A stretch of 39,880 nucleotides of DNA, taken from NCBI GenBank assembly GCA_001577025.1, contig LSCF01000005.1:1-39880 (forward strand), read 5' to 3'. The position numbers and the translations under genes are program-made. The notes under the pieces were generated by a model. That model saw nothing but the letters and a program-made list of their open reading frames with translations, was not told the DNA's origin and did no database searches. Of the stretch, positions 1 through 37,403 are shown piece after piece (the first letter of the stretch is position 1; every line of letters begins with the position of its first letter). This DNA comes from Fidelibacterota bacterium TCS55. Lineage in GTDB: Bacteria > Fidelibacterota > Marinisomatia > Marinisomatales > TCS55.

Positions 1-573
1 GGATTGTCCATAGACGCCAATCGTAGCTGAAGGCACGCTCAATACGTTCGCCTGTGGAGCCTTCAAAGTGTATGTGGCAAGCCATTCGGCTATGGATTGG
101 GTCGAACTCGTCCTGGTCCCAGAGGTAATGGAAACCATCATGGATGGTTGTTTCCTCGACGAGTTCCTGAGCTTCAGGTCCGCCGTATATATCCAAGATG
201 AATAATCCTTCGTGTTTAAGATTGCTGTGCGCGGCTTCGAAGTAACGAAGTAACTCAGCACGCGTTTTAAACGAGTAATAAGAGAAGTTGAACGCGACCA
301 AGACATCCACCGTGTCAGAGCTGCAGTCAACAACGTCGCCTTGGTGCAGGGTCAAATGCTGGGCCTGAACCTCACTTAAATGCTTAGCATTTGTTGCCAT
401 TCCCCAGGAAATCGATTCTGGGTCTAGGTCTACCCCGATGGCACGGTTGGCCGGATCGTGTTTGACCCATTCGCAAGCTAAATACGCGGTTCCACAAAAG
501 TCCTCCCGGAGGAAGTGTGGTTTTCGTCCAAATCGATCCTTGAAAATTTCGTCAATGAATTGAATATCGGATC
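1..573 (-). other. Class I SAM-dependent methyltransferase module within the fused frame
   Basis: The translated segment carries LREDFCGTA (from residue 174 of the fused frame), the glycine-rich SAM-binding strand of a class I methyltransferase family in which this exact motif recurs. GVDLDP at 199-204 is the acidic motif II that binds the SAM ribose. A motif-IV-like strand, VDVLVAFNFSYYS, follows. Family members normally have about 25 more residues before IQFIDEIF. Here that part is replaced by propeller sequence, so the module looks N-terminally truncated. It continues past position 1. The substrate cannot be inferred. Confidence 0.75.
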
Positions 574-1030
574 GGCCGTAAAAATCGCGATAATAGATTT
601 TATCATTGGCATGGATGAATTCCATAATTCCCCATTCACCATCATTCTTTACAGCGCCATAGACCATATCATTATAAGTACTAATTCCAGATACAGCTTC
701 CATATCCAATTGAAACCAAGCACGAATAGATTGGGCTTTTGGATCCCAAATTTGAATGCCCAGGTTACTGCCCATCCACACCAAGCCTTTGGGACCCACA
801 TGAACTGTCTGCAGGTCCGTATCCGCCAATCCATGATCTTTTGTATAAACGGTATAGTCACCGGTATTTGAGTTATAATTCACCAATCCCCCACCAGTGG
901 CCATAAAAACATTGTTACCGGCCAAATCCAAATCCTTCACATTTAAGGTGGATGTAATGGACCGCATATCCCCAATCCGAACTTGTGCGGATAGAGAAAT
1001 ACAACATATTAAAATGAGGATTTTTCTCAT
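1..1030 (-). CDS. PorZ-like beta-propeller protein fused in frame to a methyltransferase (3' end off window)
   Basis: An open frame of 343 codons runs from an ATG at 1030 to the window edge without a stop. Residues 1-16 are a signal peptide ending near LSAQ. Residues 17 to about 145 resemble the first blades of a two-component-regulator or PorZ-type beta-propeller, with repeats such as VFMATGGGLVNYN and LVWMGSNLGIQIWD. From about residue 154 the sequence becomes a cytoplasmic-type class I SAM methyltransferase. The start overlaps the stop of the M50 protease upstream (ATGA), which suggests coupling. A secreted propeller joined to a methyltransferase lacking its usual N-terminus makes little biological sense. 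GC content (hand count) steps from about 42% over 601-1020 to about 50% over 1-540. The frame is certain, but whether it is one natural gene is doubtful. Confidence 0.7.
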   Translation of the reverse strand, partial: MRKILILICCISLSAQVRIGDMRSITSTLNVKDLDLAGNNVFMATGGGLVNYNSNTGDYTVYTKDHGLADTDLQTVHVGPKGLVWMGSNLGIQIWDPKAQSIRAWFQLDMEAVSGISTYNDMVYGAVKNDGEWGIMEFIHANDKIYYRDFYGRSDIQFIDEIFKDRFGRKPHFLREDFCGTAYLACEWVKHDPANRAIGVDLDPESISWGMATNAKHLSEVQAQHLTLHQGDVVDCSSDTVDVLVAFNFSYYSFKTRAELLRYFEAAHSNLKHEGLFILDIYGGPEAQELVEETTIHDGFHYLWDQDEFDPIHSRMACHIHFEGSTGERIERAFSYDWRLWTI

Positions 1031-11477: not shown

Positions 11478-12531
11478 ATCGATTTTTCATACTTATCCAA
11501 CGCCGGATATTTTTAAAGTTCCATGCATAAGCACCGGATAAAATAGCCAACGGATTTGAAACTTCAGAAAGCTTTTTTGCAAATTCAGCCATTTGATGAT
11601 CGTTCAACCGTTCATAAAGCATCCGGTTTACAAAGGAAAGACGACGCTTTCGATTTAATCCTTTAAAAACTTGCTTGGCTTCTTTATGCTTACCGAGGAT
11701 GGACAAGGCCGCCCCTCGACCTGATGCCATGGACATTCTTATACCAAACCCAAATAAATAATCCTGAAAACCACCCGCCTCACCAATTTTATATGGATAC
11801 GTCATTCCACCGAAAGGAAGTGAAAAACTACCTCGGCTACCGAATGGCTTTCCTTCGGGAATGGTTATGCCATAATTATCAAAATAATCGACGCTATTTT
11901 TGAGAGGATCTATACCACTTTTCTTTGGTTTTTTATAAGCAGTGGCCAACGTACCCTCTCCATTAATAATGATAAGATAGGCATATCCTTTGGGTGCAAA
12001 TTCATGGCCCAATAATAAATGAACTTGATCCTGGAGCGATGTTGAAAAATTAATCCCACGAATATAGGCCGCAACATTGGCTGTACCTGTAGCACGGATA
12101 TCACAATCTTCAGGTGCTTTTTCACCCAACTGGATTTGAACACCGGCAGATTGACACTGACGATATAATTCTGTATCCAAATTGGAGGCGCCACTCCCTC
12201 GTTTTACCATATGAAAAAATGGTTGGTGATGATGAATCAAAAATGAAGGTACCGTGGCGGTGTGGACTCTAAAACGGTTGACTGGGATGGATGTAATCTG
12301 ACTATAATCAAAACCGGATTGCACAAAGAAATCAGTCATGGATTCATCAAATATCCAATTTTCGAGTCCTTCATAATCGCCATGGCGATTACCACCAATT
12401 TCCAACTCCTTTTCATACACGATAGGATTAAACCCGGCTTTTTTCAATTGGATTCCGGCTGTCATGCCCGCAATTCCGCCACCGGCAATTTTAATGGTTC
12501 TGGCAGAATCTCCCACTGGCTGTTTTAACAA
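11458..12531 (-). CDS. FAD-dependent oxidoreductase, geranylgeranyl-reductase-like
   Basis: 357 aa. The N-terminal Rossmann dinucleotide fold has IKIAGGGIAGMTAGIQLKKAG (glycines at 17-22) and the acidic residue after beta-2 (VYEKELEIGG). Later segments, HEFAPKGYAYLIIINGEGTLATAY and GSFSLPFGGMTYPYKIGEAGGFQDYLFGFGIRMSMASGRGAA, match the second FAD contact (the GDAAG-equivalent loop) of the geranylgeranyl reductase / p-hydroxybenzoate-hydroxylase superfamily. The substrate may be a polyprenyl or other lipid; this is inference. Its start overlaps the serA stop by seven bases. Confidence 0.72.
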   Translation of the reverse strand: MLKQPVGDSARTIKIAGGGIAGMTAGIQLKKAGFNPIVYEKELEIGGNRHGDYEGLENWIFDESMTDFFVQSGFDYSQITSIPVNRFRVHTATVPSFLIHHHQPFFHMVKRGSGASNLDTELYRQCQSAGVQIQLGEKAPEDCDIRATGTANVAAYIRGINFSTSLQDQVHLLLGHEFAPKGYAYLIIINGEGTLATAYKKPKKSGIDPLKNSVDYFDNYGITIPEGKPFGSRGSFSLPFGGMTYPYKIGEAGGFQDYLFGFGIRMSMASGRGAALSILGKHKEAKQVFKGLNRKRRLSFVNRMLYERLNDHQMAEFAKKLSEVSNPLAILSGAYAWNFKNIRRWISMKNRYEVRPT

Positions 12532-14099
12532 TGGAGTTGTTGGACAGAAACAATTTCAGGCAATCCCATTAATTGCGTAAGAACTGCTTCTGGGACAGCA
12601 TTATCTACACGCACCACAGCAAACGCTTCACCGTCATTCATTTCTCGACTTAAAAGGTATCCGCCAATATTAACTTTGGCTTGGCCCAGCATGGTCCCCA
12701 CTTGGCCAATTACACCAGGGACATCTTTATTTTTTGTAAATAACATGGTACCATAAGGGATTACATCCATTTCATATCCCAAGATATTAACCAATCGAAT
12801 TCGGTCCCCTTCAAATACACTGCCGGCAATACGCGTCGGTTCAGATTCTCCCTTAACACGTGTCCGTATCAAATTGGTATAAGAGCCACTATCATTGGTA
12901 TAACTATGCTCGATACTAATCCCCAATTCTACAGCCAGCGATTCTGCATTAATATAATTTACCCGATCTGGGACTCGATTTTTTAGTAATCCTTTTAAAA
13001 ATGCCAATGCTGCCGGTTTGGCTTCATCCATGGTACCAGAGCATTCTACTTGAACCCGTTTAATCACACCCGGATTTAGCTGTCCCTGAAGGTTGCCCAT
13101 AAGTTCCGCCAAATCCAAATTGATTTGAATTTCTTTCAACTTGGTCATATCGGAGATGGGCATATTAAGTGCATTGTTCAATTTTTCATGGAGGAGATAA
13201 TCCCGCACCTGTTCACAAACTGCCATACTCACCCCTTCTTTGGCTTCTTGGGTTGAAGCCCCAAGGTGAGGAGTTAAAACAATATTTGGTGCATTCAATA
13301 GTGGATTGGATTCATCCACAGGTTCTGCAGTAAATACATCTATGGCCGCACCGGCGATTTTTCCATGGATTAACGCCTTGGCTAAATCCGCTTCATTAAT
13401 GATACCGCCTCTAGCCACATTGACTATCCGGGCAGACCGTTTCATATCAGACAAACGCTCATAATCGAAAAGGTCACGGGTGGTGTCTGTCAATGGCACG
13501 TGGACCGTGATATAATCTGAATCAGCTGTCAGTTCGTCCAAATCCACAATTTTAACTTCTTCCGGATTGAACATATCCTGGTTCATATAGGGGTCGAAAC
13601 CAAGAATATTCATCCCAAAGGATCTGCATCGTGTCATGACTTCGCGGCCGATTTTCCCCATACCTACAATGCCTAAAGTTTTGTTTCGAAGCTCTGACCC
13701 CACTAATGCATGGCGATTCCATTCACCTTGTTTCATTCCTGAATCCCCAACAGCGATATTTCGAGATAAAGTGAGCATAATGGCCACGGTATGTTCGGCG
13801 GCAGATATGGTATTCACATCCGGTGTATTCATCACAACCACACCTTTGCGGGTGGCGGCAGGTATATCAATATTATCCACACCCACACCTGCTCGTCCGA
13901 TGACGCGAAGATTTTGGGCACCATCAATCATTTCTGCGGTCACTTTAGTGCCACTACGAATCACCCAGCCGTGGACGTCCTTGCACGCTTTAACTTTTTC
14001 TTCCGGTGTACCGTTGGGCAATTGAACAACATCAATATTGGCATCGGTTAGGACAGCCAATCCACTTTCGGTGATGGGGTCGGACACGAGGATTTTCAT
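12525..14099 (-). CDS. serA: D-3-phosphoglycerate dehydrogenase SerA (ACT-domain long form)
   Basis: 524 aa. Catalyses NAD-dependent oxidation of 3-phosphoglycerate to 3-phosphohydroxypyruvate, the first step of serine synthesis. The catalytic core has GRAGVGVDNID, the NAD-binding GMGKIG (146-151), and catalytic Arg230 (NVARGG), Glu259 and His278 (LTPHLGAST). An intervening ASB-type domain (about 320-450) and a C-terminal ACT domain (KNKDVPGVIGQVGTMLGQAKVNIGGYLLSR) make it the long, Mycobacterium-type form, usually subject to serine feedback. The aconitase gene lies just six bases upstream on the same strand. Confidence 0.96.
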   Translation of the reverse strand: MKILVSDPITESGLAVLTDANIDVVQLPNGTPEEKVKACKDVHGWVIRSGTKVTAEMIDGAQNLRVIGRAGVGVDNIDIPAATRKGVVVMNTPDVNTISAAEHTVAIMLTLSRNIAVGDSGMKQGEWNRHALVGSELRNKTLGIVGMGKIGREVMTRCRSFGMNILGFDPYMNQDMFNPEEVKIVDLDELTADSDYITVHVPLTDTTRDLFDYERLSDMKRSARIVNVARGGIINEADLAKALIHGKIAGAAIDVFTAEPVDESNPLLNAPNIVLTPHLGASTQEAKEGVSMAVCEQVRDYLLHEKLNNALNMPISDMTKLKEIQINLDLAELMGNLQGQLNPGVIKRVQVECSGTMDEAKPAALAFLKGLLKNRVPDRVNYINAESLAVELGISIEHSYTNDSGSYTNLIRTRVKGESEPTRIAGSVFEGDRIRLVNILGYEMDVIPYGTMLFTKNKDVPGVIGQVGTMLGQAKVNIGGYLLSREMNDGEAFAVVRVDNAVPEAVLTQLMGLPEIVSVQQLHC

Positions 14100-14105
14100 T
14101 AAAAA

Positions 14106-16367
14106 TTACCCTTGCTGTGTACGTATGAGGTTTAAGGCCGAACCGGCTTTAAACCATTCAATCTGTGCTTCATTATAGGTATGGTTACAGACGATTTTAT
14201 CAGATGAACCATCTTCGTGGTTAGCCACCAGAGTCAAAGGATTCCCTTTGGAGAATTGATCTAAATCCATAAAATCAAATGTGTCATTTTCTTGGATCTT
14301 ATCGTAATCACTTTTATCCGCGAATGTTAAGGCCAACATACCCTGTTTTTTCAAATTCGTTTCATGGATTCGGGCAAAAGAACGGACCAATACAGCACGG
14401 ACACCAAGAAATCGAGGCTCCATGGCCGCATGCTCTCTTGATGATCCTTCACCATAATTCTCATCTCCAACTACAAGTGTAGGCACTCCATTAAATTTAT
14501 AATCTCGCTGTACATCCGGAACCGGGCCATATTCACCATTAAGTTGATTCTTAACAGAATTAACTTCATCAGTATAAAAGTTCACAGCACCAGTGAGCAT
14601 ATTATTTGAAATGTTATCTAAATGTCCACGAAAGCGTAGCCAAGGACCCGCCATGGAAATATGATCAGTTGTACATTTCCCTTTTGCTTTGATAAGCAAT
14701 TTTGCCCCAGTGATATTTTGGCCATCCCAAGGTGCAAAGGGTTTTAAAACCTGCAGTCGCTCCGAATTGGCGTCAATAACAACTTCTACATCAGATCCAT
14801 CTTCTGCAGGGGCCTGATAGCCTAAATCTTCAACTTCAAATCCTTTTTCTGGGAGATCGTAGCCGGTTGGTGCTTCTAGCATGAAGGTTTTTCCATTTTC
14901 ATTGGTCAGTGTATCTGTGGCGGGGTTAAATGTTAAATCCCCTGCAATGGCGATAGCCGTAACCAATTCAGGCGACCCCACAAAAGCGTGGGTATTGGGG
15001 TTTCCATCCGCCCGTTTGGCAAAGTTTCGATTAAAAGAATGGACGATTGTATTTTTTTCTTCTTTTTCAGCACCGGTGCGAGACCATTGACCAATACACG
15101 GTCCGCATGCGTTGGCAAATACGCTGGCGCCCAATGCATCGAATGTATCAATAAAACCATCCCGTTCGATGGTGTATCGGACTTGTTCAGAACCGGGTGT
15201 AATGGTGAAATCTGCTTTTGTTTTTAATCCTTTATCCACGGCCTGTTGTGCGATTGAAGCAGAACGTGAAATATCCTCGTAAGAGGAATTGGTGCATGAT
15301 CCGATTAGGCCTACTTTTACATCGGTTGGCCAATCGTTTTCTTCAGCTGCTTTTGCCATTTCAGAAATGGGTGTGGCTCGATCCGGTGTAAAAGGTCCGT
15401 TCAAATGGGGTTCCAGTTCGGATAAATTGATTTCAATGACTTGATCAAAATATGATTCAGGATCGGAATACACTTCAGGATCCGCTTTCAAGTGTTCGGC
15501 AATATCATCGGCTAATTCTGCAACTTCTTTACGTCCTGTGGCTTTGAGATAATTCGCCATGTGTTCATCGTACCCAAACATGGATGTGGTGGCACCAATC
15601 TCCGCTCCCATGTTACAAATGGTTCCTTTGCCGGTGCAGGACATTTTATCTGCGCCTTCACCAAAGTATTCTACAATGGCGCCTGTCCCGCCTTTTACAG
15701 TAAGGATACCTGCCACTTTCAGAATCACATCTTTAGCAGATGTCCATTCGCTCATTTCACCAGTTAGTTTTACACCAATGAGTTTGGGGAATTTCAATTC
15801 CCATGGCATACCGGCCATAACGTCTACAGCATCTGCACCGCCAACACCAATAGCCACCATACCTAGACCACCAGCATTGACTGTATGGCTGTCGGTACCA
15901 ATCATCATTCCACCGGGAAAAGCATAATTTTCAAGGACAACCTGATGGATAATACCTGCACCGGGCTTCCAAAAACCAACTCCATATTTATTTGATACAG
16001 ATTCCAAGAAATCATAGACTTCGCTATTCACATCCTTGGCCACATCCAAATCTGAATCAGCGCTTATTTTAGCTTGAATAAGATGGTCGCAGTGAACTGT
16101 TGAAGGGACGGCCACTTTGTCTTTCCCCGCCATCATAAATTGGAGTAAAGCCATTTGTGCCGTGGCATCCTGCATGGCCACACGGTCCGGATCAAAATCC
16201 ACGTAAGATGCCCCGCGAACATGGGCCTCTGTGGCATCCCCTTGAGAAAGATGACTGTACAATACTTTTTCGGCGAGGGTTAATGGGCGACCGACAATCG
16301 ATCGGGCGGCAGCAATTCGGCCAGGCAAACGGTCATAAAGGGCTTTGATTATATTTAGGTCAAACAC
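14106..16367 (-). CDS. acn: Aconitate hydratase (mitochondrial-type)
   Basis: 753 aa. Interconverts citrate and isocitrate in the TCA cycle. The Fe4S4 ligands are Cys358 ([16 protein letters not shown]) and Cys421/Cys424 ([10 protein letters not shown]). The C-terminal swivel domain has the substrate-binding [17 protein letters not shown] loop. Length and motifs match the mitochondrial ACO2 / bacterial AcnA-like mitochondrial group rather than AcnB. Translation starts at GTG (16367) with an upstream AAGGA about seven bases before it. It is the first gene of the minus-strand run and faces the divergent sortase gene. Confidence 0.96.
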
Positions 16368-36138: not shown

Positions 36139-37403
36139 TTCGCCCAAACCGTAACCAAGACAAGTACATACAGACCGGATTGGATGTGGGGTCCGATAAA
36201 ATCTGTTGCGCAATTGTTGAAATCGACCCCAATGCAGATACAATTAAATTATTGGGCATCGGCACATCCCCCGCTACCGGTATTAAAAAAGGTTCCATTA
36301 CCCATCGAGATCAACTCATCGATGAAATGGATCATGCCCTGCAAGAAGCACAATTGATGGCCGATATCACCGTTCAGAGCCTATCTCTTGGTATTTCCGG
36401 GGATCACATTCGAGGAATCAATACCCAAGGGGCTATCGCCATAGGCGGCAATAATGGATCAAATGTGCCAGTACAGCATGAAATCACTAATTCAGATGTG
36501 AATAGTGTTTTAGAATTGGCCAAGGCCATCTCCCTTCCTGTGGATAGAGACATCCTTCATGTCCTTCCTCAGGAATTCGTAATTGATACTATGGATTCCA
36601 TAAAAGATCCTGTGGGGTTGACCGGTCGGCGATTAGAAGCCCGTGTACATTTGATAACCGTAGCCACCACAGCTGCCACCAATTTAGCCAGTTGTGCAGA
36701 AGAATTGGGCGTCACAGTGGATTGCATTGTTTATCAAGGACTGGCATCCAGTGTGGCGACCTTGGTTGAAGATGAAAAGAATTTAGGCGTTGCCTGTGTG
36801 GATATTGGTGCCACCACCACAGATATTGTTGTCTATTTTGACGGTGGTATTCGCCACACGGCTACATTGGGCATCGGGGCTGCCAGTATTACCAATGATA
36901 TTGCTGTCATGCTCCAAGTGGGCATTGATGAAGCTGAAAAAATTAAAAAGACCTATGGGTCTGCAAAAGCATCCATGTCCTCTCCGGATTTGGATTTTGA
37001 ACTCCCGGCGCAAAATGGAGGTCTTAAGCGGAAAGTATCAGAGCATGAATTGTCCCGTTATGTTGAGGCCCGAATGGTTGAAATATTACAATTGGTTATG
37101 CGGGAAGTATCCAGAGCGGATATCAAAGAAAAATTGACTTATGGAATGGTTATTACCGGCGGTGGATCCGAGCTAAAAAATCTTCCTGGATTGGCACAGG
37201 AAACCATCAATATGCCCGTACGGATTGGTAAACCCAATAATGTAAGCGGTGCCATTGATGTGGCATCGGGGCCATCTTATGCCAGTGCCATCGGTCTCGC
37301 CCAATGGAAAAATTTTGGAGAAGATTTAAATAAATTTAAACCAGTGGAATCCCTCAGAGGTACATTGGATAAAGTGAAAAAACTGATAAAAGAATTCTTT
37401 TAA
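36135..37403 (+). CDS. ftsA: Cell division protein FtsA
   Basis: 422 aa from the ATG at 36135, which overlaps the ftsQ stop; a GTG two codons upstream is less likely. Actin-fold motifs are GLDVGSDKICCAIVE (phosphate 1), a 1C subdomain (about 90-165), VDIGATTTDIVVYFDGGI (phosphate 2) and VITGGGSELKNLPG (adenosine). The C-terminal KVKKLIKEFF is the amphipathic membrane-targeting helix. It tethers FtsZ filaments to the membrane. Confidence 0.96.
   Translation: MIRPNRNQDKYIQTGLDVGSDKICCAIVEIDPNADTIKLLGIGTSPATGIKKGSITHRDQLIDEMDHALQEAQLMADITVQSLSLGISGDHIRGINTQGAIAIGGNNGSNVPVQHEITNSDVNSVLELAKAISLPVDRDILHVLPQEFVIDTMDSIKDPVGLTGRRLEARVHLITVATTAATNLASCAEELGVTVDCIVYQGLASSVATLVEDEKNLGVACVDIGATTTDIVVYFDGGIRHTATLGIGAASITNDIAVMLQVGIDEAEKIKKTYGSAKASMSSPDLDFELPAQNGGLKRKVSEHELSRYVEARMVEILQLVMREVSRADIKEKLTYGMVITGGGSELKNLPGLAQETINMPVRIGKPNNVSGAIDVASGPSYASAIGLAQWKNFGEDLNKFKPVESLRGTLDKVKKLIKEFF

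Follow-up and report, generated by a model that had tools for sequence, protein, structure and literature searches.

A propeller-methyltransferase fusion frame at the edge of a metagenome-assembled contig is very probably a chimera between genomes

Does a secreted propeller protein really continue, in one reading frame, into a methyltransferase? The window analysed here covers contig C45 from end to end (39,880 bp); the genome to which it belongs is fragmented, with 98 contigs totalling 1.72 Mb. An uninterrupted minus-strand frame runs from position 1081 to position 2 and is still open at the contig edge. Its probable start is the ATG at 1030 (MRKILILICCISLSAQ...), followed by what looks, by eye, like a putative signal peptide. 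The original prediction described this as a single frame joining a secreted propeller to a truncated methyltransferase, the switch being placed near codon 154 and accompanied by a GC step from ~42% to ~50%, and it proposed two explanations, a chimera at the contig edge or a recombination event. The joined frame was indeed found, on the minus strand from ~1030 to 2. Using blastn and a column comparison, the switch from the PorZ-like propeller to the methyltransferase was located inside positions 541-570, which codon 154 (571-569) adjoins. The GC step is real as well: the propeller part has a GC content of 41.3% and the methyltransferase part of 50.3%, with GC3 values of 40% and 54%, respectively.

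The two halves of the frame were examined separately. The first 153 residues, which are a fragment, match the T9SS PorZ model NF052228 with an E-value of 1.3e-6, and the chimeric frame scores 24.6 bits against this model. Searched alone at E up to 1e-3, the propeller half has matches in 51 of the order's 61 genomes; in 10 of the 12 congeners these are strong, with 51-74% amino acid identity. Full-length frames in the congeners are ~745-775 aa long (769 aa in G005, the closest congener), full-length copies span ~745-830 aa, and most matching frames across the order measure 740-900 aa. Among these matching frames, searched in the genus and in the order, none had a methyltransferase attached to the propeller gene. 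The full-length congener protein aligns with the PorZ model almost from end to end (residues 21-768 on model positions 9-757, E 1.1e-48), but its 166 bits fall short of the 260 bits set as the curated equivalog cut-off, so the gene is called PorZ-like here rather than a confirmed PorZ.

The C-terminal part of the frame matches class I SAM-dependent methyltransferase models of Pfam, the best E-value being 4.4e-6 and most matches falling just under the curated cut-offs. The models Methyltransf_12, Methyltransf_25 and Methyltransf_11 are matched by the tail and by its Acidobacteria relatives, with the difference that the window holds only a fragment of such an enzyme. None of the 60 relatives searched has this methyltransferase. 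When GTDB species genomes were scanned, a gene 85% identical at the amino acid level was found in the Acidobacteria MAG PCAP01000052.1; the other matches were in a second Acidobacteria MAG, JADFNY010000147.1 (69%), and in a Lysobacterales MAG (46%). Within the family of PCAP01000052.1, 3 of the 5 genomes searched have the gene. The DNA match to PCAP01000052.1 begins at window position 570 and reaches 87% identity over 565 bp. Comparing the taxonomy of matches half by half, as had been proposed with the original prediction, thus gave discordant sources, congeners for one side and Acidobacteria MAGs for the other. That the two halves come from different phyla supports the chimera option.

The methyltransferase does lack its N-terminus, although the loss is larger than the ~25 residues first proposed: ~33 residues are missing when counted from the first ATG of the relative, and 49 if the count begins at the TTG that opens the listed reading frame. 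At the other extremity, ~55 residues are cut off by the contig end. An ordinary gene gained by horizontal transfer, with its own start, was rejected, as the methyltransferase has no N-terminus and is joined inside the propeller frame. The single open frame, with its signal peptide-like start, would also suit a real fused gene, in which domain fusion had placed a secreted methyltransferase domain behind a propeller. We give this explanation practically no chance. Compared with its relatives, the methyltransferase is short of its N-terminus; an old fusion would be expected to show far less than the 87% DNA identity seen here to a gene from another phylum; and the remainder of the propeller is present on another contig (see below). 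Since no homologue in the 13 genomes of the genus or the 61 of the order has the same architecture, a real propeller-methyltransferase fusion family was rejected.

The remainder of the propeller was found when the full-length G005 protein was used as a query against this genome: residues 214-769 are encoded on contig C4 (G000:C4:25721-27388), with 81% identity. On C4, the join retains three quarters of the PorZ-like gene, on the C-terminal side. In G005, a single contig, C42, runs unbroken through the propeller gene, and both of our contigs are colinear with it. From 541 to 36,904, C45 follows G005 C42 from 36464 down to 1, where C42 ends, and C4, read from 27,390 down to 3,469, follows C42 from 36561 up to 66,420. 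This colinearity means that C45 and C4 abut at the propeller gene in the native order, with ~97 bp missing. The missing ~97 bp were not found elsewhere in the assembly, the search giving only the C45 copy and chance matches.

On C4, the propeller remainder lies within a frame of 1214 aa, the first ~655 residues of which are an M6-like, T9SS-associated protease. Outward from this protease come a PorV-like gene and then a DctM gene. At the DNA level, the block shares 76% identity with a genome from another family in this order; in amino acids, the protease is 71% identical to that of G049, a genome of a different family, and the tail is colinear with G049. An intact native M6 orthologue, 48% identical to the C4 copy, lies on contig C12, where the neighbouring genes are kept too. 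C4 would be a second chimeric contig, with an in-frame protease-PorZ-like join (G000:C4:27369-31358; locus L037, local ~12370-16359). The chimera option is strengthened in that the propeller gene is unbroken in congeners, and the half of it that C45 lacks is carried by C4, beside a foreign tail different from that of C45.

A short similarity was found at both joins. On C45, the G005 match runs to 541 and the match to locus L023 starts at 570, and the ~30 bp between them resemble both the congener propeller gene and the Acidobacteria methyltransferase gene; on C4, a stretch of ~20-30 bp is likewise similar to both parents; these similarities were judged on relatives, the best being 82% and 87% identical in nucleotides, from which the shared words are estimated. 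The coordinates on C45 are collected in Table 1.

Table 1. Segments of the joined frame at the edge of contig C45 (window positions)
Segment	Position	Strand	Evidence
Native PorZ-like propeller, N-terminal part (~153 aa), putative signal peptide first	571..1030	-	Amino acid identity to congeners, colinearity with G005:C42, PorZ model
Probable false-join zone (~30 bp)	541..570	-	blastn and column comparison to G005 and L023
Foreign tail, internal fragment of an Acidobacteria-type class I SAM-dependent methyltransferase	2..540	-	Amino acid and nucleotide identity, Pfam matches

Illegitimate recombination also shows short similarity at joins. Foreign DNA might have been inserted by such an event into the PorZ-like gene, replacing ~97 bp, in which case the tails of C45 and C4 would be the edges of the insert. 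Two observations speak for this and against a chimera: the two tails are oriented as they would be after a single large insertion into the gene, and both frames remain open across the join, which by chance happens only part of the time. We nevertheless regard a real insertion as very improbable. The tails come from different lineages, one of them another phylum, and their GC contents are 50% (C45) versus 37% (C4), so that two donors would be needed, along with in-frame joins on both sides. Moreover, the C4 tail keeps the gene order of a donor and duplicates a block already present on C12, and no trace of an insertion was seen in any congener. No more Acidobacteria-like DNA was found in the assembly, where further parts of the 12.6 kb Acidobacteria locus were looked for, and each foreign tail terminates soon after its join, at a contig end. 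Were such a recent insertion real, its products would be two in-frame hybrids, a secreted propeller-methyltransferase at one edge and a protease-propeller at the other, and we give this pair of products the same slight chance as the event itself.

We conclude that the propeller-methyltransferase fusion is, with very high probability, an inter-genome metagenome assembly chimera, given that the propeller's other half was recovered from a different contig of this genome, where it too is joined to a foreign tail. Of the two options offered by the original prediction, recombination being the other, the chimera at the contig edge is now strongly supported. The locus presents two foreign tails of differing sources, a split native gene and conserved flanking synteny. 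The PorZ-like gene of the source organism most likely continues unbroken, as it does in congeners. The assembly would have broken at the ~97 bp stretch within this gene, and each broken end would then have been extended into the DNA of another community member via the ~20-30 bp of similarity: the C45 end into an Acidobacteria-like methyltransferase gene, and the C4 end into the M6 protease, PorV and DctM block of a genome that belongs to a different family within the order. The joins were presumably made by the assembler or by a merging step, through a k-mer or an overlap. Such a pattern would be expected if an assembler extends a low-coverage or ambiguous stretch both ways into the wrong genome.

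The metaMIC paper (PMC9661791) reports inter-genome translocation as the commonest kind of error in the CAMI benchmark metagenomes that it examined, and the present case resembles these translocations in that fragments of two genomes are joined at one breakpoint. It differs from them in that both sides of one gene carry different foreign tails, the two contigs documenting each other. A further difference is that metaMIC relies on read evidence, whereas here the chimera is deduced from sequence comparison.

Foreign tails were present at both of the broken ends examined, those of C45 and C4, and other contig ends may have them. The right end of C45 (39186-39880) cuts a secreted-type protein ending in a sorting-like C-terminal domain, with an NYPNPFNP... 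motif; this region lies past window position 36904, where G005:C42 ends and the colinear part with it.

What the locus delivers is a quality warning only: in this MAG, the foreign tails of C45 and C4 give rise to false in-frame fusion proteins. An automatic annotation would present these as novel domain architectures and as gene acquisitions from other lineages. Neither bases 1-570 of the window nor the part of C4 from ~27,370 onward to the contig end should be assigned to the source organism.
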